Assembly (NCBI GenBank): GCA_017506865.1
Contig: JAFCMP010000379.1
Span: 620,001 to 684,000, forward strand
Length of the DNA stretch: 64,000 bases
Direction of reading: 5' to 3'
DNA from: Tribonema minus
Lineage: Eukaryota; Sar; Xanthophyceae; Tribonematales; Tribonemataceae
Shown: one piece after another, positions 4,801-47,364 of the stretch
How positions within the stretch are numbered: position 1 is the first letter of the stretch
How the letters are laid out: the number at the start of each line of letters is the position of its first letter
Translations under genes and position numbers: made by a program
Notes under the pieces: generated by a model
Seen by the model: the letters and a program-made list of their open reading frames with translations, nothing else
Told to the model about the DNA's origin: nothing
Databases searched by the model: none

Positions 4801-7657
4801 GAGGGAGCAGGGTGGTTTGAGTTTCAGCAATACTTTGGCATGCCTGCACCTGCACATGCATGTCTGCTGTGTGACCCACAGAGTTGTGGACCAAAGCGCA
4901 TGCAGATGGATGTGTATCATTAGCCAATAGGCATGAAGCTGTCGTGCGTACAAGTCTGAGATGACCGACTTGTGAATAGTTGTATTATGCTCAGCCACTG
5001 ATACAATGCGGCCCTACATGTACGTACCTGCAAGCTTTCCAATGGGACGCATTATGATTGGCCCCTGTGGTTCCACACTCGCCACCCACTCTGGGAACAG
5101 AGTGATTGCCGCATTGCGTAAACCTGCGGCTGCAATCGCCTTCAGTGCGGCCACCTCTCGACCCATAGCGTCGGTACAGAGCTGCCCGTGTCCTTCAAGT
5201 TGAGCTGCTGCACTGTACACCTTGCACACCTTCAAAAATCAAGGCGGAGACGACAGGGATGATGAGGTTGGGAGGAGTGCAAGGAAAGAGACATATTCAC
5301 AGCTTGATGTGATTATAGGCGGCAGTAGTGAACAGCAGGATGCACATTGTAGTAGGACATTCAAGGTTTACCTGCTCCGCAACAACTTTTGCGTTTTCAG
5401 CAGGCTGCCAATCACCCGAGAAACATGAGCAAGCCTGCTGGAGCCCAGGAGCCCAGGTGGACGGAACCGGCCCTCCCCGACTACAATTGCCGTATTGCAG
5501 CCCGCTATTGCATCATCTATGTCAAAGAACCACAGCAGGTGGCGCCAGCCTGATGTGAGATGCAATACAATAGATAGCAGCAGCAGCAGCAGCAGCAGCA
5601 TCATGTGTCAAAGGGTTCATGATCTACTACAGTGATCGATGAGCCAATGTTTACGGTGGACACAGCCAGCAACAAGTGCAAGTGGCTGATGCTGCCAGTC
5701 AAAACGTAGACTAAGTGCAAGGTCTGCGCTCACCTTGCTGCAACGTTTCAGGTGTGCTGTGACTCAGCACAATGCCGCTCGCTTCCCTGGTGGCTGCGAA
5801 GAGCTCCATTGTGACAGTGTCAGTCAGGAGTCCAAAGGCATGCGACCTGCTAGGATTTGCTTCCATAAGAAGACGCAGGTGATGAAGAGTCTTGTCACGG
5901 TGCGCATCGTCCAAAACCTGGGCCTGGACAGCAGACACAATGTGGCACAGCACCATGTCACCAATTGTGGTGTGTGCGAGACACAGTGCCCACATAATGT
6001 ACATCATGTACACATTGCGTGGCTCCCACAACACGCATGTGGCCAGATGCAATGCAGTAATATTGGTAACATCAAGTGATGCCTCACCACCACATGAACA
6101 CAGAGACACTCTCATCACACCAGAGCCATACAGTTCCTTCTCGTGCCTGGTGTGTGGGGGGGCCCACGCGGGGCGGCGGCGATGAGTTTGGGCACAGAAA
6201 CAGGGTTTGCCGGAACGAGAACTGCGCTCGCTCAGGCGGCGGAGGGGGGGGGTGCTGTCATCGACCGCGACACAAATGCGCGTGCCAACCTCGGCATGCG
6301 CGGCGTCTATGGCACGTGCGGCGTCGATGACATCATCCCGGGGTATGTCCCGGCGGATCAAGAAGAGGACGACGGTGACGAGGGCGGTGATGGCGGGGAG
6401 GAGGGCGTCGATGACGGGGAGGGCGGTGCTGACGAGGAGGAGGTCGACGAGGAGGGGGGTGCCATAATGGCTTGAGGGGCAGTATTGAGGTTATGCAGCA
6501 GGGGGGGGAGGGGGGGGGAGACAGGCACGGGGGGTTCGTCACGCGGTGTGCGGGACTGCTGCAGCAGTACATATCACCAGCCACAGTTGCAAAAGCAGCA
6601 GACACAGGGTAGAAGTAGTGTACATCCTGCGTTTGTGTTTGCAAGCGGGCGGGCAGTAGCACAATGCTCTACCCCCGCCAGAATTTGGGCTGGTGTGCTT
6701 TCGGGCCTTGGTCAACCAAGGAAACTTGAGTACCAAACGGACGTCGCGACGTCTGCGCTGGTCAAGGGCAATCTGCTGTTCGCAGCATGCCCTCATAATG
6801 ACACAGAGACGGCAAACCATTCAAGCAAATTGCTCTTGCACACGCTAACAAATCCATATCATGATAGAGAAATTTCTACATGGTAACTGCTACTGTGCAG
6901 ACGACACTTCCAGCACAGGACATGCACAGTGCTGATGCTTACCAGCTCAATTATGCTCTTTGCACCGAACGGGTGCAGGTCTTTGCCCTCCGGTAGCAGG
7001 GTCATGTCAGGCGCAGCACCGCTCAAGAAACGCGAGAATTGCGTGTCCAAGATGACCACCCCAGGGAGCCCGGTCGTGCGTGCAAGCGTAAGCTTTTCTG
7101 CACTACCAATCCTAGTCACCCACTCCAATGGCCCCTTGTACCCTAGCTGGGAGGCAGCGCCTTTAAGAAAAGCTTTGAGGCGTGGCAGGAATGCCTCATC
7201 TTTGGTGCCAGTGGGCTTCTCCATGACTTGCAGTTGTAGGGGCGGGGTAAGGTCGTTTGCACTGCTGCCATGCGGTAGCATTGCTGAAAATGTGGAGGGT
7301 TGCAGCAATCCCTGCTGAGACTGGTAAATCCGGCTATAAGTGGTGGAACCTGCAATTGATGCACGTGTGCAATACCTCAGTATGATATGCAATGACAATG
7401 TGTTCTGCCAGAGCCGTGCAGCATCTCTTCTGGGCATCAGCCAATTGTACTGTGCATGGCACTGGTACTGTACAAGTACATACAAGGTCCAGGGTAACAC
7501 ACTGAACAGTAATTGAAAGACATGACAGGACTGCCTCACCTGGGGTTGCCTCGCTTCTGAGCCTCTTGAAAGCCTGTTCGACCATGCCTTCAATCATACG
7601 CGCTGTCGGGGCGTCTGCGTACACAAGCACAATGCCACTGCGTGATGTGCCAGGCAT
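1815..7657 (-). CDS. Divergent protein-kinase-like (crinkler-type) protein, downstream six exons
   Basis: Six exons join in frame with GT-AG sites: 7657-7540, 7349-6943, 5923-5734, 5207-5028, 3569-3381 and 2161-1815, giving 476 codons and a stop at 1817-1815. The exon at 3569-3381 holds the kinase-like core: LVHGLRFLHS, then YVHADVEPKQL (H324-A-D326 in place of HRD) and LLIDVGVS (D344-V-G in place of DFG). The last exon continues with YADDVL, HHDLVALVK and a Trp-rich tail, the order seen in kinase-like C-terminal domains of crinkler-type (CRN) proteins. The middle exons carry LLTDTVTMELF and PIIMRPIGKLAG, also typical of that group. A VAIK-type lysine is not obvious and the catalytic Asn is Gln, so phosphotransfer is doubtful. 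The ATG at 7657 follows an in-frame stop, but the gene probably began further upstream, beyond the MULE insertion. Introns carry a solo LTR and GA-rich DNA. Confidence 0.7.
3920..4215. mobile_element. Solo LTR of a Ty1/copia-type element (fossil)
   Basis: This 296-bp stretch begins TGTTGG and ends TTTTGACA. Along its whole length it resembles the LTRs of the copia element at 45215-47655 (shared blocks such as gaggaagtgaccggtca and gacctatgagag), but it is clearly more diverged. No internal region is next to it, so it is a solo LTR, older than the 45-kb element. It lies within the intron between the 5207-5028 and 3569-3381 exons of the kinase-like gene. Confidence 0.75.
6346..6530. repeat. GA/G-rich low-complexity tract in an intron
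   Basis: The stretch is dominated by gag, gac and ggg triplets and ends in runs of eight or nine G. On the plus strand it gives an Asp/Glu/Gly-rich open frame, which I read as a by-product of composition. It lies in the 1,019-bp intron between the 7349-6943 and 5923-5734 exons of the kinase-like gene. Confidence 0.6.
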
Positions 7658-8190: not shown

Positions 8191-8200
8191 GTGTTCACGG
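8191..8200. repeat. Target-site duplication, left copy
   Basis: The 10-mer gtgttcacgg directly precedes the MULE terminus cggatccc. The identical 10-mer directly follows the right terminus at 19705-19714. A 9-10 bp duplication is typical of Mutator-like elements. Confidence 0.9.
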
Positions 8201-8351
8201 CGGATCCCATATTTGGGCCAGCCTGGCCCAATTAACTATTTGGGCCAGGGGGGTTGAACACCCCCCAGCAAGTGCACATTTGAAGTGTGCGTGTTCGCAG
8301 CAGTCGCCCTTGCGTTTCTGGCGCTACGCACAGTGCGGAGGCCGTGTTGAC
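8201..8351 (+). repeat. MULE terminal inverted repeat, left
   Basis: 151 bp, starting cggatcccatatttgggcc and ending gccgtgttgac. It differs from the reverse complement of the right repeat only at two nearby positions (gcgtttctgg against gcagttctgg). Confidence 0.92.
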
Positions 8352-8614
8352 GGCTCATTCTGTTGTAAAACACCAGCGGTCTGTGGTCTGGCGATGCAAT
8401 GGCGTGGCTGGTGCGGGCAGCTGTCATAGGCAAGTGTTTCGAAGCGAAAGTCTGCAACTGTTGCTCTTATCCTTCGTGCGCTGTCTATGCTGTGGCGAAT
8501 GCAGTGCTTGGTTTGCAAGAATTTGGAGTATTTCAGTCAACATGTAGAAATCTGCACCGGCATACACGGCAGCAGCAACCAGATTTGGCAGTCAGCACAA
8601 AGAGCAAGCACTCA

Positions 8615-8655
<41 letters not shown>

Positions 8656-11600
8656 ATTGCTGCTGGCGGTGCTGCTATTACTGCCACAACTGCGAGACCA
8701 GTGGCTATGGTTATTATCGCTGGCGACATTGTAGGGCGACGATAGCTTTCTGCAGCAGGCTGCTGTGCTCAGGTTGCGCTTGCCGTTCGTGTGTTGCTGC
8801 TTTACCACTGCCAGTGACGCAGCTGTGGTTGCTCAAAGCTGCTTACAACTGCAGCATATGTGCACCTGACCTGTAGGCTGTAGGCTTTGTGGCTCTTGCC
8901 TTGATATGACTTGAGACTGAGCTACTGCTTGTGCACGGCGCGAGTGCTTGTCCCATACTTGTTGGATCCCGCATATGGGCCAGCCTCACCCATTCAATGT
9001 TGAGGCCTCAGAGCCACGTCATCCATTCATTCAGCACTGCCGCCTCGCTGCTGCTGCTACGTGAGCGCCAGAACTAACAGGCAGTAGGAGGGCTGGCTCT
9101 GTGGCAGGCGCTGGCGGCAAAGGGAGGCCGCTGCTGCGACAGCCCCAGTCTCACAGGCAGTAGAAGGACTTTGTAGACAGGCGCGGGCGGCGAATGGAGG
9201 CCAATGGCGGCATGGAGACTGGTTGCAATGGCGAAAGCGCTCCAACGGCATTACAGCGGCGTTGTGTAGTGATCAGGTAAAGCGGTATACTAAAGGCTCT
9301 CAAACTGGCTTTTTTCGCTTGTGTGCTTTACTGAGGCGCTGTGTGAATACCTCTCCGTTCGCGCAACATTGCATTGAACCAGGCTCCAAACAGAGTTGGT
9401 TTACCACGTCAAGCAGACAAGGAGGCAATGATGCAAGCATCGGCTCACCACCAGCAGCAGCAGCAACAGCAGCAATTGAAACGCAGCCGCTGGTGCGTGC
9501 TGCTGCTGATGTTAGCATGCTACATGCAGGTTTTTTTGTGGTTGCTGCGCAATTCCCATATGCTCCTGGCCTTAGTCGCCCGCAAGTGCATGCCAAGCGC
9601 ACTAGCAGTTGCTCTGCAGGAGTCGCAGCAGTAGCAGCGCAACGGTCACTGGATACGGTACAACAATAGAGTGAAAGCGCGGGCCAAAATAAATATAGGA
9701 ACGCATGGTTTTTTTCGACTTCAGTGCAATATTCTGACGACCACATGTGCTCATTCAAGGTGGCACATGGCAGATGTTCTGATGCTATCTGTTGAAGAGT
9801 GTGATTGAGACAGCTTACACACGCACCTTCCGTTTACTGCATGTTATGGTTCCACTAAATGTTATGGTTCCACTGTTAATGTGTTCAGTCACTACCGTCA
9901 ACGCGGTCTACCATACCGTAAGGCAATTATCTAGTACAAGTCTACACCACGTGTCGTTATTTAGGGGTACAGCAACAAACGATTTTTTGGAAAGCGTATC
10001 CCACACGTGAAGACAAAGCTGAAAAGTGCCAGAGATACTGCAAAATTCAAATGTATCAATGCAGGCCAGAGCGGCTGAGTTGTGGCGTCATGCATGTGCA
10101 TGTTGATGTGATTGGACACGCTCCCGAGCAATAGAAAGATGAAGGACCACTGATTTGCACGGAGACCGTTGGGTTTGACAGGATTGCGCATGCTGGAGAC
10201 GGTCAAACATTCCCACCTGCCTCAGTCAATCCTAAGCTGAATGCGCATGCCCGTTGAGGTGAAATGCTTGAAATGTTCCAATGTGCATTGATGTTAACCA
10301 ACGTCGAAGAAAGTGACAATGACCATCATGTGTTGTGGTAGTATACTGTGCCTAGTGTCAAGGAATGCTGGAAGATGGTGAAATGCTTGCAGGCAGCTGA
10401 AATTGCTGTCGTCAGCATGAACACAAATGGATAACTGGACTTGTCCACACATCGCAGCGGCGCAACGAGCAACATTTGCGACTCAGGCAAATGCAATCAC
10501 TATACGCTACTCAAGAACTTGTTGCACTGTTAAATGTCTTACAGCACAATAGCGTTCTCAATGCAGTGTTCAAAACATGTTCGCATTATCACCTCACGGC
10601 CATCCTATTGCAATCTTATGCAGGCCCACCATCTGAGATCGGCTCCAAGCGAGGCACAGCTGCAGGCACCCTCACGAACTGTCAAATCGCCCTAGTACCA
10701 AGCAGCTGGTGTGCGCCACTTGCAGCGAGCAGGCCTGGCTATATGCTTGGCTCCAAGACAGGCAGGTGGTTTTGAAACTGCTCATGTTGCTTGCAAAGTT
10801 AGTTATCCGGAGCCTTTGTCCTGTGTGTATTATAAACACTGGCAGGTGTTGCTTATGTTGCGCATGCTGAAGGCATCATTGCAAATGGTGAGCTTGATTT
10901 ATGCACCTGCAGAAGTGCAGGGTGGATAAGCATTATGCTATGCCCATCAATACAGCTCAACTGCAAGGGTTATGATTCAGCAGTAGTTGCTGTCATGATA
11001 TATGCATTGCAATCGATGCCTTGTCCTGACCATCAAATTCATGCTGTTGAAATGATCAGGCTATTCAACTGCTGCTGTTGATCTAGTTAGCATGAGGTGC
11101 GTGCATGCATGGCCGCTGCTTGCGAAGAGGGCATCACTGGCCCCTGATGTGAGTATGCTGCGGATGAGATGTTTTTCTGTGACTGATGCACAAGTCCTGA
11201 ACCTCTGCGGTCTGTGCTAGTGAAGGTGGTACAAGTACGCTGCAGGCACAAACTGCGTCCTTTCCATACGAGCACCAGCACACAGCCTGATTTTAGAGTG
11301 TTTCAGGTTCGTAGCATTATCAGTATTCGTGTGCTGCAAGCAGGAACCATGATCATTTAGCAAATTACCTGATCGATGTTATCTCTATCTGACGTCGCAG
11401 ATGTCGTGGAGATTCCAGCAGCAAGATGGCGTGTTTTGCAGCTGCATATTCTGCATGGTGCCAGGCAACCATCCGCCCAAGTACTTATACCACCTGCAAC
11501 GTGCGATTACAGCACAGCGGATTTGCGCATTGCGCCCAGATGTGTACACACGCACTGTTATGTCAAGGCACACCGTTTTTTACAACAGGCACCTCATCAA

Positions 11601-13065
11601 TGCCCCTCTTTCTTTTCTTTTCTGCACAAATGCATTCCTGAGTTGTGCGTCCCCGTGTTGAGTATTAGTTTGTGTTACCATTTCAATTTGCGACACACTT
11701 GACCGGTTTCAAACTGTGAGGCCAACATCACATACACGCACAGGCGGCTGCAAGAGAGGGTGCATGCCCGTTCAGCAGGTTGTTTGGAGAACGGGTGCTC
11801 TGCTACACCTGATTCGATCATCTTTCAGTATTTCTCGCATTACAGTTGGTGCTGTGATCCTACGCGCATGACCTTAGTGTGAACACACATGCATGCATGC
11901 ATCATGTTTGAGTTGTGGTCCTGTCAGTGGTGAAGCATCAACAGTACATCAGGCACATGTACATGCACGCACCTTGGAGTTGTCCTCGTGAACCTGATGT
12001 CAAAAGACATGCCATATAGCTGGCAAGCACATGCCATGGAATTGCAATCCAGGTCTGTATGCAAAAATTATAAAGGTAGATGACTTTGTCAGAATTCGAC
12101 ATCAGGTGGCTCTGGCAGAGCCAGCTTGACAACACTTGGCTCGTGAAGTCATCATCCGTCGCTCAAGATGCCATGCACTGTTATGTCGTGTTGCAACAAC
12201 AGCACTAGACAAGCATACATACTCTGCTTTACAAGTAGTACCAGAGTCTATATATACTGCTCGTTAGCACCGAGAGGTGCGGCAGCACTCGCGGTGGCGC
12301 TGATGGTGGCGAGGGTGCATCAGGCAGCAAGGGGATGGGAGATGCTGGCTGTGAGCAGGAGCTGCGGAGTCGCGTGTGGTGAGGATACGGCTTTGGGCAG
12401 CAGCAGGGGATATTGGAACATGGGGATACGGATAGCATCAGGGCACACTGTAGATCGTTTGCTTGAACACGCAAGAAAGAGAACCTCGGCCAGGCACGTC
12501 AGCGGCGTGCTTAGGCAAGGAATCGAGGACCGGGCGCCTCTGGCCCAAATGTATACTAGAGGCATAACCGCGGTCCTCCGGCGTTTTCGCTCAAGAGATG
12601 GAGACATCGGCTACGATAGGTGTGGCTCAGACTGGGTGCCGCTGTGTCTGCCCCCCATGAGTCTAGTACAAGCCTGCAACGCAGGGCTCTAAGGGCCCGT
12701 CCGATTTTAGTTTTTTGCATTCTTATCCAACGCATCAAGCCCACCTTGGGGCTGCTATAAGTACAAGATCATAAGTACTAGCATGACATGTCATTATCTG
12801 CATTACAAGAGTAGGTGAAGCGGCTCACCGCAGCACGGTCACAATAGCAGAGCGGCTTTAGTTTTCACTATGCAGGACAAGGCTGACCTTACACAGCAGA
12901 TGACAACGCAATGTATGCTTGCAAGCGGCTTACTTTTGTACATGCATAAAGTTGTCAGGATGTGTGATCTGAACGCCGAAAGCAGGAGCAGTAGAACTTC
13001 AACATGCATCATGAATAATCTTGTGATTTAAACACACATTAGGCATCACAACTGGCTGCTGATGT
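8352..13065. other. MULE internal region without a recognised gene
   Basis: These 4.7 kb separate the left terminal repeat from the transposase stop codon. I see a second, degenerate copy of the terminal sequence at 8963-8990 (ggatcccgcatatgggccag), CTG/CAG microsatellites near 8619-8650 and 9455-9478, and a roughly 85-bp imperfect repeat built on caggcagtag at about 9075-9205. Open frames are short; the longest is 174 codons on the plus strand (12168-12692) and has no recognisable motif. The region could hold captured host DNA, remains of a second element gene or subterminal regulatory repeats; the sequence does not decide. Confidence 0.5.
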
Positions 13066-16000
13066 CTACGATTTGGGCTTCTTGCGGGCTCCGCCTGTGC
13101 TGCCCTTAATGCGTTTTCCCACCGTGTTCTGCGTACGCCGTTTCCTGACAAAAGGGTCATGGACATTGCCAGCAACCATGTCGCGCATTACCTCAGCCAG
13201 ATACCTCATTTTGTCTACTGCCTGCTGTGGTGGCAATGACTTAGCGTCTGCGACAATGGTCTTGGCAATCGCCCATACCTCAGCATGAGCCTTCTCAACA
13301 TTAGTCTGCAATGGCTCATCTAATGCTGCTGCCCCTGCCCAATCACCGTCGAATGCGTGTTGAGTGACATCTGTGCCAGCAGCATAGTGCATTGCAGCAA
13401 GAGCCAACACTTTGGCCAGTGCTACCTGCTGACCAGCACTAGTGGTGACGCAAGCTGCTGCCTGGGCTGAGGAAGGACGCAGCCACCTAGGGTTGGTGTT
13501 GCGGAATACAGCATTGGCAGCTGCAATGGCGACACGTAAGCATTGTGGCCGGCCAGGCGCTGCAGGATTTGATGGAAGAGGTACATCAGCCACCATTTGC
13601 TGCGCACTTGTGCCCGCCCCACCCCCCCCTCCTTACCATTCCGCAGAGTAAGTGTGTTCTGCATAGGGCTTGCTTTGCGAGCAGCCTTGAGCACCCGCTC
13701 TGCTGTGCTCTGCGGCAGCCCTTGCAGAGTGCAACCATCTATGGCAGTGATGATGTCGCCAATGGCTACAAGCTCTGATGCCTCGGCAGCAAGCATGCCA
13801 CCGTCCTCCGCGCGCGTGAACGCTTGTACGACGACCATGCGGTTGCCGAATTTGAGCTTGACGCCGAGGCCCTCGCCCTTGCGCATGCGCAGCGTCACGT
13901 CGAACATGCCGTACGCCGGAGCTGCTGACGCCGCACCGCTTGTATCGGCAGCGGCGGTGCCAGCTGCGCATTCTCCAGAGCCCTGCTCGCTATCCGCTGT
14001 CCCCCCCACCCCCTGTCCCTCCCCCGCCGCCGGCCCCGCCGCCTCTGCCACCCCCCCAGCGGGGATGACTGTCACTCGCGGCAGCCAAGCGATGATGTGA
14101 CGGCAGAGCATGCCTGTCCGTATGGGGTTCAGGCAGCTGCACAGGGCAGCGCCTGAGGCCGCCACCACCACCGAGTGCTGCGAGCACCCTGAAGTAGCCG
14201 TCGCTGCAAACCACTCCTGATTTGCAAACACTGGGGCGCTGCGCGTGATCGCTTGCAACATGCCCTCACTTGCCCTCCGACTATCATTGTCATCTAATGT
14301 TGCGTCAGGGTCGTCCTCCGGGGTTGGTCCTGAAAGCAGCAACACACGCGCATCAAGTCAGAGGGTGCTTTAGAAAGGGCTTGAATGCGTCCAGACATGA
14401 GAAGAAAGTGCAGGTGACTCTCGCATCAGGGCTGCCACCACCCAGCAGTCCGCAGTGCACGGCGCCTCATTGAGAACCTCACGTTGATTGTACAGGGCTG
14501 CACAGGCAGACAACCTGAAGATTGAGGAAAAAGGCAGGTGCGGCGTCTCAACGAGGCTCTGGTGTTGGTTGCAGCGGGCTGAACAGGTGAGAGGGGGTGA
14601 GAAAAATGCATGCAATCGAACTTCAAGTCCAGCTCAGCAGTGGAAACGTGTACCACTGAGGACATGAAGCTGAAGAACTGGTGGACATTAGCCTTCATTC
14701 GGCAGTGCACGGACTCATACAGGGTATGCATATACTAAATTACATCGGATGATCATGATCCCTCAGTCAGGCGAGTCTGACAGCACCCCTTTGAGGGGGG
14801 GGGGGGCCGGGGCATTTACCAGGGCGGGGGGGGGGGGGGGGGGGGGCAGAGGTCCAAGATTGGCAAGCCGAATAAACCAGGAGGCAGGCGAGTGGGTCGA
14901 GAGGGAGGGGGGGCAGGGGCATAAGAAAGGCTGAGGGTATCGAGGATGCCGTTACCTTGCTGGCTTTAGTGTACTCGACTTGCTTGGCACATGGACATGC
15001 AGTACTATAATGGGAACAGCAATATTTGCTGCAGCACTGTTGCTGTTGTCGACATTTCTGTAGGTGGGTGTTGTCGCCGTTTGGCAAAAGGGGGGCTATG
15101 ACTTTGCAATGACGCCCGTGGTCTCACACAAAGAGAGGGGGCGTCTAGAATGGGGGGGCAGTAAGTCATTATTCAACAGCGGTACGGTAAGGTCACCAGG
15201 TGCGTGTGCTACATGTGCATGATGAACTTCGCAAGAAAACGTACCTGGACTGGAATTGAGACCTTCATCCGCAACCGCCACATGATACCGCGCTGCAGCG
15301 ACCACCTCCTGGGCGATGTGCTTCAGGCAATGCAAAGTGCCATGATGCTTCGCTACCTCCAGCAATGCCCCGTAGATGCTGCGCAGCCCTGCATCGATGC
15401 CCTTCACAGCCACGTCCAATGCGCGGGTGCTGGCCTCCATGTATAGCTGGTCTTCCGCGCTGTATCTTGCAGTGATGCGGCTGATGGAAGTGGTGAGGGA
15501 GCACAGCGTGCCCATTTTCTCCAGCTCTGCCTTCAGCTTGGCAAAGTAGCCCTCGCAGCGCTGGGTAGAGTTGATGCCGAGGGTGAGGATGCCAAGCCGG
15601 AAACAGAAAGCCCACCGCCTGCGGATTGCGTAGATGGTCCGGTTGAGGTATGTCACCACCTCGGCCTCAGCTTTTCCAGCGTGTGCAAGGCAATGGTGCA
15701 TTGCTTGCCACGCTGATTCGAAGCAGCGCTCCGTGGGCGCTCTGGACGCCAGCCGCAGATGCCGCTTGAAGTCCTGTCAGTCAACAAGAATGGACAGTAC
15801 CGGTGATGGATATGCTTGGCATAAACATTAGCATACACGGACGAGCCTGGCCATGTCCACAGGCCAATAAGCACATGAAATACAGGAAGGTACAAACAGT
15901 ACATGAGGCTCTCACTTCTCTTGTAGTAGTACATTTTTCTGCCATCGCTGCTTGTTGCCAGGCAAACCCTAGTAAATCGCGCACATTATCAAGCTGATGT

Positions 16001-19000
16001 AAGTGTATCAAGCACATCTCTGCACTTTGCAACCCTATATGCGCATTCTGTCAGATCAATTGTTTTTGAGTTAAAACATTGTGCACGTGATTCAGCTGCC
16101 CAGCACTTCCCTGGCTGAGTATGCGAGTTGCAGCATCACTGTTTAAGATGGCGCAGAACACGCAGTGCACGAAGATCATGGTTGCTTCATACATGTCACC
16201 TTTGGGTGTCAGCTGGCACATTCTGGAAAAATACCATCTTGATCACTGCAGACTAGCCAGCGCTCAACACCAAAGACTTGTGCAAGCCTGACATGCAATG
16301 TCTCACAACGTGCATTTGGCAGCGGATGACTAAAAAAAATGCCACGGAAGTTGGCTTGCCAAGATAGGGATGCACAGCAATGCTGGCTGACAACATTGCG
16401 ATCAGATTGTTCCTGTCAACGTCATTTTTGTCACCTTTGGGTGTCAGCTGGCACATTCTGGAAAAATACCATCATGATCACTGCAGATTAGCCAGCGCTC
16501 AACACCAAAGACTTGTGCAAGCCTGACATGCAATGTCTCACAACGTGCATTTGGCAGCGGATGACTAAAAAAAATGCCACGGAAGTTCGCTTGCCAAGAT
16601 AGGGATGCACAGCAATGCTGGCTGACAACATTGCAATCAGATTGTTCCTGTCAACGTCATTTTTGTTCACGTGATGCACTCATGGCTAGGTGCTCTACAC
16701 ATGCAAACAAGGGGCATGCACTCATGGCTAGGTGCTCTACACATGCAAACAAGGGCCATGCTACTAATTTCCAACAGCTGTAGACATACATTTGACAGTC
16801 AACTTCCGTGGCGTCGGGGTTGCACTTGCCTTCCATGCAGTCCCCAGTCTTGATTTCAACTTCTCCTTCACGTTCTTGATGAAATGCCACTCGCAGATCA
16901 GGTGCACCGTTCCCGGCCATGACAACTCCATGGCCGCCTCTGCAGCTGCATCTCTGCACAATAACACAAGTAAGGATAAGATTGGGTCACCAGCCTGACA
17001 GTGATGCCATGTGTAACAGGATAAGGGATGTGCGCTAGCGTATAGCACCGTACATATACGGCTGTGCAAGGGATGACTAAGAGCCTCGCTTCTTCTTCGT
17101 ACATACCACGTAGGTGATACCTGAACTTCAACTTCTTTCAATTTCTCGTTCAGCAGTGTAGCGCTATTGCAGACAGCAGGCAGTTGTGCATTTGATGACA
17201 CCACAACCACAAGCATAACACTGCAAGCACGTGCGGGCCGATGGTGGCAGCTGCTCAACAACAGTTTATGTACATATGTCTGGGTGACTACCTTCAGCTG
17301 TTCGCTCATGTCCCTGAAATCAAGCTGAAAGCAAACCTTGTTGCTTAGTGAGAAAGGATCATGACATGTACGCCGTATGCCGCATGCCACAATGGCTAAA
17401 CTGCCGTCTTTATAACGCATATAGAGCGGGTAGGATACTTGAGTTGGCGTATATGTATATGCTATAGTATTTAATAACCAACATGTATATCAGTTTTGTT
17501 AAACAGGATACTCTTGCAGAAACAGGATATGCTGCAAGCCTTCATACCTGTCTGTGAAGCACACTCGAGGGAATCGCCCGTCCACCATTTTCACATAATG
17601 GTCGAAGAACCACGTGAACTCTTCAGTGCCCTCTCCATCCAACACTGCCTGGCAGAACAGTCTTGTCCTGCACATATTGCAGAGAGATTCGCACAGTCTG
17701 AGTCAGACATCTGTGTTTCATGGCCCGCTGTGATTTAAACTTGACTGATACATGCTCAGCAATCAATAGCATAGAAGCCATTAGCATGACAGTATACGGT
17801 ATACGCATATCAGAACCATGCATTCGCGCATACAGTACTTCATCACCATCAGACATTCCTGCAACAGCGACATGACTCACTTGCTCTCGCCGTTCACGCC
17901 AATGATAATGCTGAGCGGCAGGCCATACTTGTTTGTGCCAAATGTGCAGTCCTGTGAAACACCCAAGCAAGTGGACAACAGAGACGATTCAGATTAGTGG
18001 TGCTTCAGAAAATGCAACAGTGATCACTCCAGCGGCAGTTGAGGCATTGGCACGACGACACAATCATGACAAAGCCTGCAAGCTGACCTAAATGCAAGAA
18101 TATACCCCAAGGACGCAAGGATGGCACATTGACAGGTTTGTGACTGCACGTTCACTCACTACGGAAGCGTTGGCCGGCCTCAGCACACACACTGATAGCT
18201 GACAACTGCGTGCTTTGCATGCATCACCCTTTGTCACCTCAGTGCAGACCGACCGACAGTTGTGGCAAAAGCAAACTTACGTGCAGTAAGCGAGCTCAGC
18301 GACTGTGGGTCACCTGTTGAATGACATCCAGACCAAACTCCATGGCCAGCTCCACCTGCTCGCGTGTGGCCCAGAATGCTCGCTTAAACGTGCTGTCCTC
18401 CGAAAGGTCATGAGCAGCATACCCTCCTGTCGCCACCACATTGTTGAGCTCAGCAATGAACTCTTTGCTGTCGCCAGCAACGAATGCAAGCTTCGCCCTG
18501 ACAGCCGCCGCTACATTGTTGAGCTGATTGATTGCCTGCTCATCGAAGACAGCCTTCAGGTCCCCGCCGAAGTGGTGAGCGAGGACAGTTTGTCGCAGCA
18601 TCTTTCCACACATGCTGGGCGCCACGCACCAGCTCCTGACATCAGCTAAGATTTCTGCTGTGAGCTCGCTCTTGGCAATGATGCGGCCGATGCCATCAGG
18701 CCGAGGTAGCTGCTTCACAGCCATTGCATGGTTGTGACCCTCGCTGAATGACGAGGGGACACTGATCAGAGTCCATGGCACTGGTGTGGCAGTGACCGTA
18801 TGCTCCAGGCTATCAGTGATCGCAGCAAGAGGCTGACGCGCTGATGGCATGTGAGGCTTTAGAACTGCACGCCAGCTGCAGTTGCATTTGATGCACTGAT
18901 TTACCACTGTCCGTGGTGCAGCATCGGGCTTCAGTGCAGAGGCCTTCTGAGGAGGGGCACCTGCACAAGGGCAGACTAGCCAGTATAGCGAGCTGTTTCT

Positions 19001-19507
19001 TTTCTTCAGGTACACCTTAAAACCAGCAGTGGAAGCTTGCATCTGCACGACCTCCAAAGCTTCGTTTGGTGACCCAAACAGCCTCCCCTGAAGCTCAGCA
19101 CCGAACTGCATGCAAACGAACAGGGCACAATGCGATCAGCTTGACACGATCTGCTATCTAAGGTCGAGCTGTGCCGTGCACTCAGAAAACGCAGTGGCCA
19201 TGCAGTGCGAGAGCTAACAGTACAGTCAAACTTGAGCCAAACTGGCCATGCCCGCGGTAGCGCTGCTGTCCGTTGGTGTGTGTCTTTGAGTTTTGAGTAC
19301 GCAACATGTGCAGTGCGACTGGTCCACTCAAGCTGTGAAGCTTACAAGGCCGATGTCAAAATGGCTTGGAACATGAACCTGACTCCCTCATGGACATTGG
19401 TCTACCGCTGCAGATGGCAAGTTATGAATGAAATTTGGCAGTTGCTTCATAGTCACCTCGACATCTCCAGCGGTTGCAGCTGAGCTCGCCGGAGGCGAGC
19501 CCTCCAT
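13066..19507 (-). CDS. MULE transposase with FAR1-like, MULE, SWIM and C-terminal PDZ domains
   Basis: Nine exons (19507-19457, 19105-18314, 17951-17881, 17667-17548, 16953-16826, 16199-16087, 15773-15245, 14329-13637, 13559-13066) join in frame into about 996 codons; the splices around 16826 and 16199 are the least sure. Exon 2 has a FAR1/WRKY-GCM1-like finger: GFKVYLKKRN, CPCAG, CIKCNC, then HNHAM. The catalytic core starts at D282 (DCTFGTNKYGLPL), continues with EFTWFFDHYV and FTDRDAAAEA (D344, D346), and has CEWHFIKN (C365, H368). QRCEGYFAKLK is typical of the C-terminal part of the core. A SWIM finger, CSCLN with MLCRHI, lies near residue 664. Residues about 745-832 form a PDZ domain: GEGLGVKL, VVVQAF, IGDIITAIDG and AERVLKAA. 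The tail is basic (KRRTQNTVGKRIKG). It should bind the terminal repeats and cut and join DNA in the nucleus. The PDZ part is unusual for this family. Confidence 0.88.
14795..14847. repeat. Poly-G tracts in a transposase intron
   Basis: Two long runs of G (about 12 and over 20 bases) are separated by about 20 bp. They lie in the 915-bp intron between the exons 15773-15245 and 14329-13637, and are C-runs in the transcript sense. Confidence 0.8.
16195..16664. repeat. Tandem duplication, unit of about 235 bp
   Basis: The block starting gtcacctttgggtgtcagct at 16195 is repeated from 16430 with very few differences. It lies in the transposase intron between the core exon ending near 16826 and the tentative exon 16199-16087, whose acceptor lies at the edge of the first copy. 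An immediately adjacent 42-bp unit (tgcactcatggctaggtgct...) is also duplicated at about 16675-16758. Confidence 0.9.
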
Positions 19508-19553
19508 CTGTGCGTCACCAAGCCCACTGATTGCTGTCTTAGCTGCTTACTCG

Positions 19554-19704
19554 GTCAACACGGCCTCCGCACTGTGCGTAGCGCCAGAACTGCAAGGGCG
19601 ACTGCTGCGAACACGCACACTTCAAATGTGCACTTGCTGGGGGGTGTTCAACCCCCCTGGCCCAAATAGTTAATTGGGCCAGGCTGGCCCAAATATGGGA
19701 TCCG
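19554..19704 (-). repeat. MULE terminal inverted repeat, right
   Basis: Reverse complement of 8201-8351 with two mismatches. The terminal bases are gggatccg and the duplication gtgttcacgg follows directly. Confidence 0.92.
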
Positions 19705-19714
19705 GTGTTCACGG
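19705..19714. repeat. Target-site duplication, right copy
   Basis: Identical to 8191-8200 (gtgttcacgg). Here the base pairs fall in a minus-strand open frame (NRNTWPVNT), so the MULE entered or closely abutted an exon. Confidence 0.9.
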
Positions 19715-20604: not shown

Positions 20605-21297
20605 GCTCTTCCCCCCTCTTGCTCCCCCTTCCTGCAGCAAAGTGGAGGAAAGGGAACAGAACAGATGTGCACAACACAGTAAGAACAGCAACAACGACTT
20701 GCAGACTGAAAGCAGTGACGATAGTCCAAAGCACAAGCACCAGCTGGCTTGTCGCCGTTTTAACGGCGAGCGACCACTCGAACGCTGGTTCTGTGTCGGG
20801 ATTGAACATTGTTTAGACTTGTTGGGGAGGCACACGAGAGTGACGATGTCAGCGTCACCTCGGCAGCAGACTATATCACTACCTCACAGCAAATCTGACT
20901 AAGCCTGAACCGCTCACTGGTGCAGCTTTGATGAGGCTGAAACCTCGGCTTCGGCTGCTGTGGATGTACACGCGCAGCTGGCTCACGTTCAGGGCCTGAC
21001 AGGAGACCTTGCTGTTGCGTCAAAGCGCCCCAAGGTGTGTAATCGAGGAGTTGCTGCGCGAGGAGCTGCAGCTCTGCTGCTTGCCCCGTCCGGACGTACG
21101 TCGTCCGGTTCCTGAAAAGTTGATGTGTGTTCTTCATGCGCAGGAATAAAACGTTGAACTTTCTTTCGAGGTCCCAACCGATCCGACCGCAACTGCAATT
21201 TCGAAACCGGAATTCCGGGGGGACGGAGAGCCCCCGAGCTGAGAGCGATTGTGGCTGCACTCACACAGCTTTCTCTAGCACCAACGAGACAAGAATC
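20605..21297. promoter_or_regulatory. Divergent intergenic region between the kinase-like gene and cyclophilin
   Basis: These 693 bp separate two genes read away from each other and must hold both promoters and 5' leaders. No TATA box or known motif can be assigned with confidence. The last 30 bp before the cyclophilin ATG (ccaacgagacaagaatcatg) look like a leader. Confidence 0.5.
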
Positions 21298-24200
21298 ATG
21301 GCCAACCCTGTGGTGTACTTCGACATGACCATCGGCGGCCAGCCGGCTGGCCGCATTGAGATGACGGTACGTGCTTCTGCTGTTGATTCGGATGCAATGC
21401 TCTGTAAGCTGTTCTGACTACGTCTTGCATGATGCTTGTCCTCACAGCTGCGCAAGGACGTGGTGCCCAACACCGCCGAAAACTTCAGGGCACTTTGCAC
21501 TGGCGAGAAGGTGTGTGGTGTTGTTGAGTGCGAAGTTCTGTTGGATTTGTGCCTGTTGTCTTAAAGATCAAAAGATCCAACTCGCGGCAAAGTACAGAAG
21601 TACATCGAACATTGTAGCTAAACAGTGTGATTCCACGCCTGCGTGTATGTTGTACTGCTTTCAACCAGTAACATGCAATTCCGGTGACCGGCTATTACAC
21701 GATCTCATGTGTTGAAGCCTCGTTGTGCGGATACGCGCTGAACGATCTTGGCATATGTTACCTTGGGCTGTTGGCATCGTCCACACACACGAGCAGCGGA
21801 TATTGGGCCATGTATAAGTCGTATCGGGTTGTGACATGCCGTGAATCACGAGAAACTGCTGTAGACGCGAGGGGCGCCAATGTTGATTCGCCACATTCTA
21901 GTGACGGACGCTCTTGGCGGACATGCTACTGCTTCTGTTTACTCGTTAACCCTCGTTAGAGTCTGGAATCGTGACCTTTCGCCGCGGCACTGGAGCCTAC
22001 AGGTGTCCGCAACAAACGAATTGGGCATTGCAGCTATGTGGCAGATCAAACCTTTGGTGATTCGCGAATGCTGGCTGTGACCTGCATTGATCATTTCTTA
22101 TGCTGTCGGCGCCCGACAAGGCACACAGCTTTACATGGCCACTATAGACGTGCTACTCAGAAGCATATGATTTGTGATGCACATTGCTTTCGAAGTGGAA
22201 ACCACATCTTCAAACTTGCCAACATCTGGACTTTGTACACCACTGCGTGATCTACATACACACCTCCGTGATCTTGCAAGCACTACCGTCTTGTCGATAA
22301 TCAAGGCCCGGGACGGTATTTTGGTACGTTTATACTACAGCAACAATAAGCACGTCCCCCCTTTCAGCGTCCAGCTGAGCGCGGAATGCATGTCGTGATG
22401 CTGCTAGCAGCTAGATAAGAGCCCCGCAGTAGCCTATGATGAACAGAGACAGCATTTGTTGCAGCCGCCTTCGATTTTTCAGGCCACAGATCCTCACAGC
22501 ATCTCCAGGAGGGCTCGAATGCTGAAAACCTATGAGAACTTCGATCAACTTCAAGCGTGACCCTGGCAAAGTCGGTGACGGCTGAATTCTCCGAGAGCAA
22601 TGCCCCTGGCGATGCAACCGAGCAGGAATCAAGTGCTGAGGACCTCACTTTAATTAGCGTCCCCCCTTTTAACTCGCCTCACAATAAGCACGTCCCCCCC
22701 CCCTTTTTACGCCAAGATCGAAATACCGTCCCGGGGCCTTAATTATCGACAAGACGATAACAGACTCAAGGATTGAGTGGTGGCATTGTACAGCCTAGCA
22801 CCGAATTTCCGGTGTTATTACATTCAGCAGCGCCTACTCGTAGGTCTGTCGGCGCATCTCACTCATAAGCACCAGGCTTTGTGTATTGTCAGACCCATTT
22901 TGTACAGCCAATTTCAAGCCGTGAACCCAAGCGTGAATTGCAGACCGCATCTGTGTAACGCTCTAGTTTACATGTGTAGCTAACGTAACGTCATTGGCAA
23001 CGCCCAGCGCAGGTACATTCCTTCCGCGAACCGCTTGTGGCACAGGCAGCAGCAGCTCGGAATCTCTAGCAGTCATGGCGCAGCACAGCCACTCTTGCCA
23101 TGCCTCTACGTGCTGAGTGACTCTTTGCGAGCAACCCTCATCACAAGCTCGGCGCGTATCGGGTGCAACTTTTCACATTTTTTCAAGACGTTCGCTGCAA
23201 TTTTGCTCGTACTGATGGTCAGGGCGTTGGCCGCATGGGCAAGGCCCTGCACTTCAAGGGCAGCAGCTTCCACCGTGTCATCACGGACTTTATGTGCCAG
23301 GGGGGTGACTTCACAAAAGGCAATGGCACTGGCGGCGAGAGCATCTATGGCGAGAAGTTCCGTGATGAGAACTTCACACTGAAGCACACTGGCCCTGGCA
23401 TTCTGAGGTGCGTACATGGCAGTATGGCACATGCATAATTACTTCCGAGTTTAGTGTAGTGAGCTCCAACAGTGTCAAGCACTGGCATACAAGCACTGGC
23501 ATATCAGAAAGTGTGTAGACAGGCAGGTTGAATGACAGTTGCATTGTGAGAATATGAGGTTAGTTTCATACATCGGAAAAAAAAATTCCGCACCTTTGTG
23601 ACTTAAAAACAACAAACACCAGTGGATTTAATGAGAACTTGAAGAATTTCACATTGTTGACTATTGCATCTCTTGTAAATGTATTAGGCCCCTGTTGTTA
23701 TTACTACAGTAGTGAGGCCTGGGGATTCTACACACTGCGAACAAGTGAGGGCTGGTGATTGCTCGTACTTTGAATCTGTCAATTTGTGGATTATTCAAGT
23801 GCATGGGTACCAGAATTCGCGAGAATGTCAAATCCATGGCAACTGCACTGAAGCTGTTTTATATCGAGGACGTTAATCATGGCAAATTTATTGGAGCTGT
23901 TGGTACGACAAGTGACAATTGGTTTACTTTGCAGTGTCAGAGATGTGACCAGGATGGTGCAGCAATGTTGCTGTGACTTGCGATTGTACCGTAGATCACG
24001 GAGTATAAAACCCCCCTCTTGTATAAGACCCCCCTCTTGTATAAGACCCCCCCATCGTATACTGTAGTATAAGACCCCCCGTTTCCCTTGGGAGGTGTGT
24101 GTGTGTGCGCAAGACCGGGGGTACGCTGTATAAGACCGGGGGAAGCACGTGTTGTATAAGACCGGGGTTGTAGACAAAGGAACATGGCAGTTACGCAAAC

Positions 24201-45505: not shown

Positions 45506-47364
45506 CCCCCTCTCAGGCCGAAATGAGGGCTGCAAGCCAAGTGACACTGCTGATAAAAAGCGTGTGTGTGCATGAGCACTGCTGCAGACTGCGGAAAAAG
45601 AAAGTGTGTGTGTGCATGGTTTGCAGGTGGACTGCTGCATGGATTGCAGATGGACTGTTGAATGGAACTGCATGTTGGTGGACTGCTGAATGAACTGCAA
45701 GTGTAGCTAACACTAAGCTGCCTGCATAGAACTGCAGGTGGAGCTAACACTGCTGCATGTGGAACTGGCATGTACCCCCCTCTCAGGCCAAAATGAGGCC
45801 TGATGGTATGAGTAACCCACTGGAAAGTTTACAAGCTGCCAGCAAACCAAGTGCTGATTCCCAATATTCTCGACTTCCCATGCCTTTAATATAGGCTGAT
45901 ACCAGGCAAATAGTGCCATGGTAGATCTGGGGCGAGTGGGGTGCCTCCCTCGCCTTTCAACAAGGCATATTTCAGCAGGCAACATAGTGCCGCGGATGAT
46001 GTGGGGCAAATGGCAAGCTTGATGACTCCGTGGTTGTCCTAGAAGATGGTAGAGGGTGATGCGCCAGACAGGGTGATGGTGGCGAGGTGTGCTGTCTTGG
46101 AGTCCTTGCTGCAAATGAGATCCAACGTCCAGCTCTCCTGTGTGTTCCTGCAGAAGGGAAAGAAGAGAGCACTTGTACGCACTCCTGCCGAATGTCTGCC
46201 GATGGAGATTTCCGCTCTGCGGTCGATGGCCTTGAGCACTGAACAGAGGCTGTCTGCGCCCACTGGCATGGTGGCGGGTACGACGACGCGGACGATGTCG
46301 TAGAGGGTGACGAGCTAAGCATTGATGAAGCCGTGTATGTCACCTATCTCAGTTGCCTGCGCCAAGCCGTCCGTTGTGGTGGCTATGGCGTTGAATGGCC
46401 GGCGGTTGAGCAGTCCTGCAGCTGAAGCAGTCATATGCCTTGTACAGCCAGAGTCGACAATCCACTCCTCGGGACAAGAGGAGGGAGACTCAGTAGAGCA
46501 AGTGGTGCTGACGATGCGGTCCTCGGGACAAGAGGAGGTCGTCTGCGGCTTGATAACCGCCAATAAACCCACATTATTGCTGCTGTTGCTGCTGCTGCTG
46601 GTGCTGCCGCCCTCTCCACAATGGCGACCTTGAATGGTCCAGCCTGGAGGTTTGCCGTGCAAGCAAGTAGTATGTGTCGACCGTGTAGCCACGATGAGAG
46701 CCGCATTGCTGGGAGGCTCTGGTGCTGCTGCTGCTGGTGGTGCTGCTGCAAGTCTGCGTTTGTAGAAGGCCTGCAGACAAAGTTGTAGCTCCGCTAGGGA
46801 GATGCTCTCCAGCTCCGGCTCGAGTTGAGTGCCGAGCAGGTATTGAGCTCGGGCAGCTTGCAGACGATGTGTGATCTGAAGTTTCACGTTGGTGAGGACA
46901 ACACAATCGTCGTCCAGCTGCCTCCTGATGTGATCAAGACTCAAGAGAAAGTCGTCAGGGTCCTGATCCGCAGACATCACAGCGGCTGAGAAGAGCCGCC
47001 TGAGTTTTGTCTGGCGACAAGTTGACTTCGCCTCGTACTTGTTGACGAGGGCTGCCCATGCGCGTGCTGCGCAATTGTCGCCACGCGTGATGCTGTCGAC
47101 GAGGTAGTAGGCTCCATTTGAACAGCACATGACGAGTTCTGCGTAGGCGCGTTTCTCTAGGGCTCCGCGTGCTGTCCTGGCGTCTGCGCTGAGAGCGTCG
47201 CGCACTGCAGTGTCCATTGAACTGGTAAGTAAGCACTGCATCTGTGCCGATCAAATCTGCTCTAGCAAGAAACTTGCCTGACCACTGTCTCCAGTTGGTG
47301 GGCGTGCCATTGAAGAGGGGAACTGCTAGCCGTAGGGCGTCCTTGACTCCAGTCGGTGTGACCA

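Follow-up and report, generated by a model that had tools for sequence, protein, structure and literature searches.

A MULE transposase of Tribonema minus with a PDZ domain behind its SWIM-type motif

INTRODUCTION

Mutator-like elements (MULEs) have been surveyed in 50 lineages, and the extra motifs given in Table 1 of that survey are FAR1, OTU, SET, PMD, DUF, minisatellites, and unknown ORFs (PMC6446971). The word PDZ is absent from the main text of the survey, and no group in its Table 1 carries such a domain. PDZ was also absent from the portion of the main text of PMC5745447 available to us, and no report of a MULE-PDZ fusion was found in the titles and abstract beginnings of the open-licence literature.

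Fusions of TRADD-N with Mutator/MULE-related transposons are a precedent for an adaptor domain in this superfamily; in the portion of that report available to us, PDZ is mentioned on other proteins only (PMC8195603). Work on Ectocarpus describes Tudor and chromodomain Gypsy elements in brown algae, the Tudor element also occurring in Tribonema minus, together with one MuDR family; the main text of that paper does not mention PDZ (PMC12477816).

Here, we describe a MULE in a 64,000-nucleotide stretch of the T. minus genome (contig JAFCMP010000379.1, positions 620,001 to 684,000), referred to below as the window. Like the SWIM-transposase MULEs of the survey (MuDR, Jittery, and elements of diatoms and other groups), it has the transposase core, a SWIM-type motif, long terminal inverted repeats (TIRs), and a target-site duplication (TSD) within the 8 to 11 bp that the survey text gives for MULEs; unlike those elements as they are described there, its SWIM motif is followed by a PDZ domain and a conserved region (PMC6446971). 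It resembles the OTU, SET, and PMD MULEs of the same survey in having an extra domain on, or carried with, the transposase, but those domains are different ones, and here the PDZ stands behind the SWIM motif. With the TRADD-N fusions, as far as the available text describes them, it has in common a signaling-adaptor domain and the superfamily, the domain there being TRADD-N (PMC8195603). The chromodomain and Tudor Gypsy elements come from the same algal lineage and likewise carry an interaction domain at the C terminus of a mobile-element enzyme, but according to the main text they are retrotransposon polyproteins with histone readers, whereas the element described here encodes a DNA transposase with a PDZ (PMC12477816). 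The original prediction, made on the letters of the window, had regarded the SWIM-PDZ architecture as nonstandard, a judgment with which the main text and Table 1 of the survey agree.

RESULTS AND DISCUSSION

Transposase gene

The gene lies on the minus strand, and its seven exons splice into a frame for a 942-amino-acid transposase, with the phase kept at every junction and with GT..AG intron ends except for a GC donor after exon 4 (Table 1). The order of its parts is a Cys/His-rich N terminus, the MULE core, the SWIM-type motif, a linker, the PDZ, a conserved C-terminal region, and a basic tail. The original prediction had a nine-exon gene; seven exons are enough to keep the frame and to complete the MULE profile, the MULE transposase domain PF10551 matching the spliced model at 1.3e-19 over positions 1 to 99 of 99. 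The predicted coordinates of the exon at 14329-13637 and of the 77-nt intron at 13636-13560 were confirmed, SWIM motif and PDZ were found in one open frame within that exon as had been claimed, and the phases match across both neighboring introns, which have GT..AG ends, with the frame running on into 13559-13066. A basic tail had been placed directly beyond the 77-nt intron; the tail is present, but a conserved region of about 140 amino acids, with no Pfam family at an E value of ≤1, precedes it. At two related loci (L022 and L025), a single open frame crosses the place of this intron.

TABLE 1 Coordinates of the element and its features in the window
Feature	Positions	Strand	Description
Complete MULE element	8201..19704	-	11,504 bp; from TIR search and comparison with other copies
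5' terminal inverted repeat	19554..19704	-	151 bp; 149/151 identical to the other end
3' terminal inverted repeat	8201..8351	+	151 bp
Target-site duplication GTGTTCACGG, left copy	8191..8200		10 bp
Target-site duplication GTGTTCACGG, right copy	19705..19714		10 bp
Exon 1	18314..19111	-	N-terminal Cys/His-rich region (CIKC.C.W ... EGHNH); Cys and His invariant in 4/4 rows
Exon 2	17881..17951	-	DCTFGTNKYG; first conserved acidic residue of the MULE core
Exon 3	17548..17667	-	CFTDR; second conserved acidic residue
Exon 4	16830..16953	-	HLICEWHF, C/H motif; GC donor next
Exon 5	15245..15773	-	NSTQRCEGYF; conserved Glu
Exon 6	13637..14329	-	SWIM-type motif CSCLNPIRTGMLCRH, Gly/Ala/acidic linker, PDZ domain
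PDZ domain	13638..13904	-	FDVTLRMRKGEGLGV ... NTLTLRN; 89 aa; PF00595 and PDB PDZ profile matches
Intron between PDZ and C-terminal exon	13560..13636	-	77 nt; GT..AG, frame kept
Exon 7	13066..13559	-	Conserved C-terminal region (AVFRNTNPRWLRPS...) and basic tail GGARKKPKS*
Nested insertion	12243..12773		About 0.54 kb; in the 3' part of the element; missing from 8/8 other copies compared

The D of DCTFG, the D of CFTDR, and the E of QRCEGYF are invariant in all four rows of a full-length alignment; we take them to be the catalytic DDE residues. A six-frame scan of the genome with PF10551 gave zero matches, even at the known copies, because introns split the domain. The C, C, C, and H of the SWIM-type motif, CxCx9CxH, are invariant in 12/12 rows.

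The intron between exons 4 and 5 contains a tandem duplication of ∼240 bp (16194-16670), whose cross-matches are about 98% identical. Elsewhere in the window, Copia-type gag and Pol_BBD gave weak matches at 46318-47250 on the minus strand, neither reaching its curated cutoff, and open frames resembling exons lie at 21124-23438 on the plus strand. By motif, the latter presumably encode a cyclophilin-type peptidyl-prolyl isomerase.

The element and its copies

The long TIRs (149 of 151 bp identical) and the 10-bp TSD are those of a MULE. With up to 3 mismatches allowed, the 19-bp TIR tip, CGGATCCCATATTTGGGCC, had just two matches in the window, one at 19686-19704 on the minus strand and one at 8201-8219 on the plus strand (chance expectation, 0.01). 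In eight other copies (L009 to L016), the first block matching the window is 99.7 to 99.8% identical to it and starts at 19704 in four copies, at 19705 in three, and at 19711 in one; the starts past 19704 are chance matches in the flanks. Without the nested insertion, the element measures about 10.96 kb.

Downstream of the transposase gene, some 4 kb of the element (8352-12242) is without a recognized gene, and CAG/CTG-rich simple repeats lie near 8600. The 3' region has 49 listed frames, of which seven were scanned with Pfam for a second element gene; no match reached a cutoff, three frames having matches far below it and four having none.

A search of the T. minus genome (158 Mb, 554 contigs) with the PDZ stretch of the window gave 68 matches, comprising 22 at 99 to 100% identity (the window included), one at 80%, and 45 at 40 to 54%. 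The 19-bp tip occurred 44 times genome-wide at ≤1 mismatch, 41 of these exact, compared to zero for the reversed control; by position, the tips formed 15 pairs spanning 10.96 to 11.70 kb. TSDs were checked in 14 copies, with one end missed for C41, C106, and C123. The 10-bp duplication was exact in 9 of the 11 copies in which both ends were found, had one mismatch in C447, and was lacking in C522.

One insertion flank is common to contigs C438, C220, and C539a, another to C447 and C457, and a third to C348 and C123. Contigs with a common flank are probably alleles or duplicates, so that the 22 near-identical copies represent fewer independent insertions. Two related sequences on the same contig as the C31 copy, each 87% identical, cross the insertion point without the element; no empty site was found for the window copy. 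The 942-amino-acid frame is whole in five of nine copies (the window and eight others) and broken by a length change in the other four. On the strength of its sequence, we take the element to be an intact, recently mobile, autonomous MULE with one recognized gene.

Identity of the PDZ domain

PF00595 matched the 89-amino-acid PDZ stretch, taken alone, at 2.1e-5 (25.2 bits), above the curated cutoff of 23.2 bits, and the full 942-amino-acid model at 1.8e-3 (19.0 bits), below it. Among five relatives scanned, three were above the cutoff (P0003, 3.5e-7; P0008, 3.1e-5; P0004, 6.3e-5), P0006 was slightly below it (1.3e-4, 22.7 bits), and P0007 had no PDZ in the Pfam scan. A search of the PDB with a family profile built from 10 PDZ stretches (nine MULE and one host) yielded 46 distinct sequences at E values of ≤0.01, with GRIP, X11/APBA, and nNOS on top and a best value of 1.1e-7; many of these matches span the second half of the domain only.

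The LG, GD, and AI residues of the PDZ are invariant in 12/12 rows, and LG, GD, and AIDG are invariant in the four-row full-length alignment. In PDZ domains, LG is the carboxylate loop and GD..AI forms a strand. The original description of a well-formed PDZ is thus borne out by the match of the stretch alone to PF00595 and by the solved PDZ structures found with the family profile. The HMMER runs proposed with it had a mixed outcome: the MULE profile was found, PDZ was above the cutoff for the stretch and below it for the full model, and no SWIM family was listed by Pfam at an E value of ≤1.

Conservation across families

Long loci were fetched around 20 of the 68 PDZ matches. The transposase is present at 19 of them, in families that have about half of their residues in common; eight loci belong to the family of the window. 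Upstream transposase exons were matched at 11 of the 12 diverged loci, the remaining one, L026, matching by its PDZ alone, and matches continued past residue 930 of 942, in the tail, at nine of the 12. SWIM motif and PDZ share one open frame at nine of the 11 diverged MULE loci, a count that includes L027, where the PDZ frame is lost near the end of the domain; the exceptions are L018, with a stop inside the PDZ, and L028, with a frame change. In the full-length alignment, which runs from the N terminus to the tail and in which two of the four rows are exon chains with known blemishes, core, SWIM, PDZ, and C terminus are all kept. L020 and L021, of one family, have a long in-frame Ala/Pro-rich repetitive insert at the junction of the PDZ and the C-terminal region.

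A Trinity-derived EukProt protein, P0006 (960 amino acids; ORF type, complete), has the same architecture and is 49% identical to the model over 99% of its length, PDZ and C-terminal region included. It is close to L023, five of nine matched stretches being 94 to 100% identical and the others 92.5, 81, 74, and 49%. In our reading, P0006, which is not a read from the window locus, indicates that transcripts of a sister family are made and spliced with the PDZ included. The original prediction that the fusion is one protein and looks functional is in line with the matching phases, with P0006, and with the conservation of the PDZ between diverged families, and its proposed search for further SWIM-PDZ MULEs turned up the same order at diverged T. 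minus loci and in P0006.

In a database of 5.8 billion proteins, searches returned 5, 3, and 2 hits, or at least eight different proteins: two from T. minus, two from EukProt, and four with no organism shown. One of the T. minus proteins, P0005, is 98% identical to locus L019. Among the candidates scored in these searches (8,000 or 7,997 sharing most words, so that distant relatives may be missed), the distribution is narrow, comprising Tribonema, a EukProt transcriptome close to Tribonema, and the four database proteins, most of which lie on short contigs.

Selection on the PDZ

The dN/dS ratio of the PDZ was 0.31 for L019/L022 (SWIM part, 0.20; linker, 0.97), 0.18 for L023/L025 (SWIM, 0.11; linker not computable), 0.34 for the window and L021 (SWIM, 0.33; linker, 0.58), 0.26 for L021/L022 (SWIM, 0.15; linker, 0.31, nearly as low as the PDZ), and 0.69 for the window and L017 (SWIM, 0.25; linker, 0.48, so that the PDZ is above the linker); synonymous distances of >1 are saturated, and ratios derived from them are rough. 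The pairs L020/L021 and L024/L025 were too similar to tell. Since all five ratios are below 1, four of them at or below 0.34, the PDZ appears to be under purifying selection. The pair of the window and L017 counts against a strong form of this reading.

Origin of the PDZ

A tree was made of 19 PDZ stretches, 11 from MULEs and eight others from the same genome. The 11 MULE rows and L026 formed one group (support, 97/95), and the remaining seven rows were on long branches, where joins may be false. L026 was placed beside the L023/L025 group with weak support (81/72). By BLAST, its PDZ is up to 50% identical to the MULE PDZs, and its links to other PDZs of the genome are short or weak. The L026 PDZ lies at 6995-7279 in a frame that ends at 7399; the next frame runs from 7403 to the end of L026 and continues in L058 (2-1297), where it matches Rav1p_C (RAVE/DMXL) at 1.2e-21. 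We infer that the PDZ and the Rav1/DMXL-like frame belong to one gene. The host PDZ of L026, just upstream of the Rav1/DMXL-like frame, is the closest non-MULE PDZ found.

The tree of the transposase core (nine rows) has a deep split between L025, L023, P0006, and P0008 and the rest, and the PDZ tree has the same deep split for the rows present in both. The simplest reading of this agreement, and the probable one, is that a single gain of the PDZ preceded the family split and was followed by vertical descent, the domain having been kept since. The transfer may have gone from the gene neighboring Rav1/DMXL to the MULE or in the other direction.

Possible roles of the PDZ

By homology with other MULEs, binding to the inverted repeats would fall to the N-terminal and SWIM parts and cutting to the MULE core. 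The linker behind them shows poor conservation and an abundance of Gly, Ala, Ser, and acidic residues, so that it probably holds the PDZ flexibly. There the PDZ could dock another protein by the peptide at that protein's C terminus; the invariant LG of the carboxylate loop makes the binding of a terminal carboxylate plausible. Recruitment of a host partner (chromatin, nuclear pore, or protease) or of a second element protein to the transposon ends had been suggested with the original prediction. Such a contact would tether the transposase to a nuclear host factor, helping nuclear retention or target choice. Chromodomains in retrotransposon integrases are thought to serve much as is proposed here for the PDZ.

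That the PDZ is a docking module tethering the transposase to a host partner protein is the explanation that we prefer, tentatively, giving it slightly less than an even chance. In its favor are the shared SWIM-PDZ frame, the four-row alignment, the low dN/dS of the PDZ, the matching split in the two trees, P0006, and the near-identical copies, with exact 10-bp duplications in nine of 11 and a whole frame in five of nine; against it are the score of the full model below the Pfam cutoff, the ratio for the window and L017, the linker ratio of L021/L022 close to that of the PDZ, the narrow distribution, and the broken frames (four of nine copies and two of 11 diverged loci).

The residue at the start of helix B in PDZ domains reads ligand position -2, and a histidine there denotes class I. 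Mapped via the GRIP alignment, this residue is Q, A, V, T, or R in nine MULE rows, in contrast to the animal scaffold PDZs (GRIP, X11/APBA, and nNOS), which are the best solved-structure matches by profile; no row has the class I histidine. The families probably prefer different ligands, since the residue differs among them. This variation fits either family-specific partners or family-specific self-assembly; within one genome it argues against tethering, because it would be odd if all families docked on one host protein.

A role within the transposition complex, in which the PDZ binds an internal motif of another transposase subunit or an element-encoded peptide and so gives family-specific assembly, is possible, though we think it unlikely. 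A ligand-reading position that differs between families in one genome is as expected if each family recognizes itself, and the unexplained 4 kb downstream of the transposase gene would leave room for such a peptide; however, the seven scanned frames of that region had no match at a Pfam cutoff, and the transposases have S, T, R, or A as their last residue, so that most of their C termini are not classic PDZ ligands. Self-binding via the transposase C terminus is unlikely on the latter ground.

Anti-silencing proteins are known in some plant MULEs, and the PDZ might be an anti-host module that captures or blocks a silencing or repair factor of the host. The 22 near-identical copies indicate recent success, which fits this idea without discriminating, but no observation points to a silencing factor as the ligand, and we regard the idea as improbable. 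We likewise give little credence to the PDZ being a passenger from a host gene, tolerated and unused. MULEs tend to acquire host gene fragments, according to the survey text (PMC6446971), the closest non-MULE PDZ found adjoins a Rav1/DMXL-like frame, and the PDZ ratio for the window and L017 is 0.69; yet the domain stays in frame and is conserved between families with about 50% identity, and its dN/dS lies at 0.18 to 0.34 in four of five informative pairs. Finally, an artifact, either a chance likeness to PDZ or a separate gene wrongly attached by the gene model, would account for the full-model score of 19.0 versus 23.2 bits and for P0007, but it was rejected as having next to no probability given the open frame shared with the SWIM motif, the PDB profile matches down to 1.1e-7, the three of five relatives above the PDZ cutoff, and the transcript-derived P0006 with the same order.

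Docking to a host partner can be extended to a more specific scenario, which we offer as a speculation with the chances against it. A MULE lineage would have taken the PDZ from a host scaffold-type gene, the candidate being the one beside the Rav1/DMXL-like frame; docking would have become obligatory, the C terminus of the partner would steer or license transposition, and the groove would have been retuned in each family. If true, this would be a DNA transposase whose targeting could be reprogrammed by a short peptide tag.

The SWIM-PDZ transposase itself is real. A PDZ is a simple, well-understood peptide socket, and its presence in a transposase, kept across diverged families, offers a handle on the contacts between transposons and proteins. 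With it, a DNA transposon joins the mobile elements of brown and yellow-green algae for which interaction domains are reported in the main text of PMC12477816.
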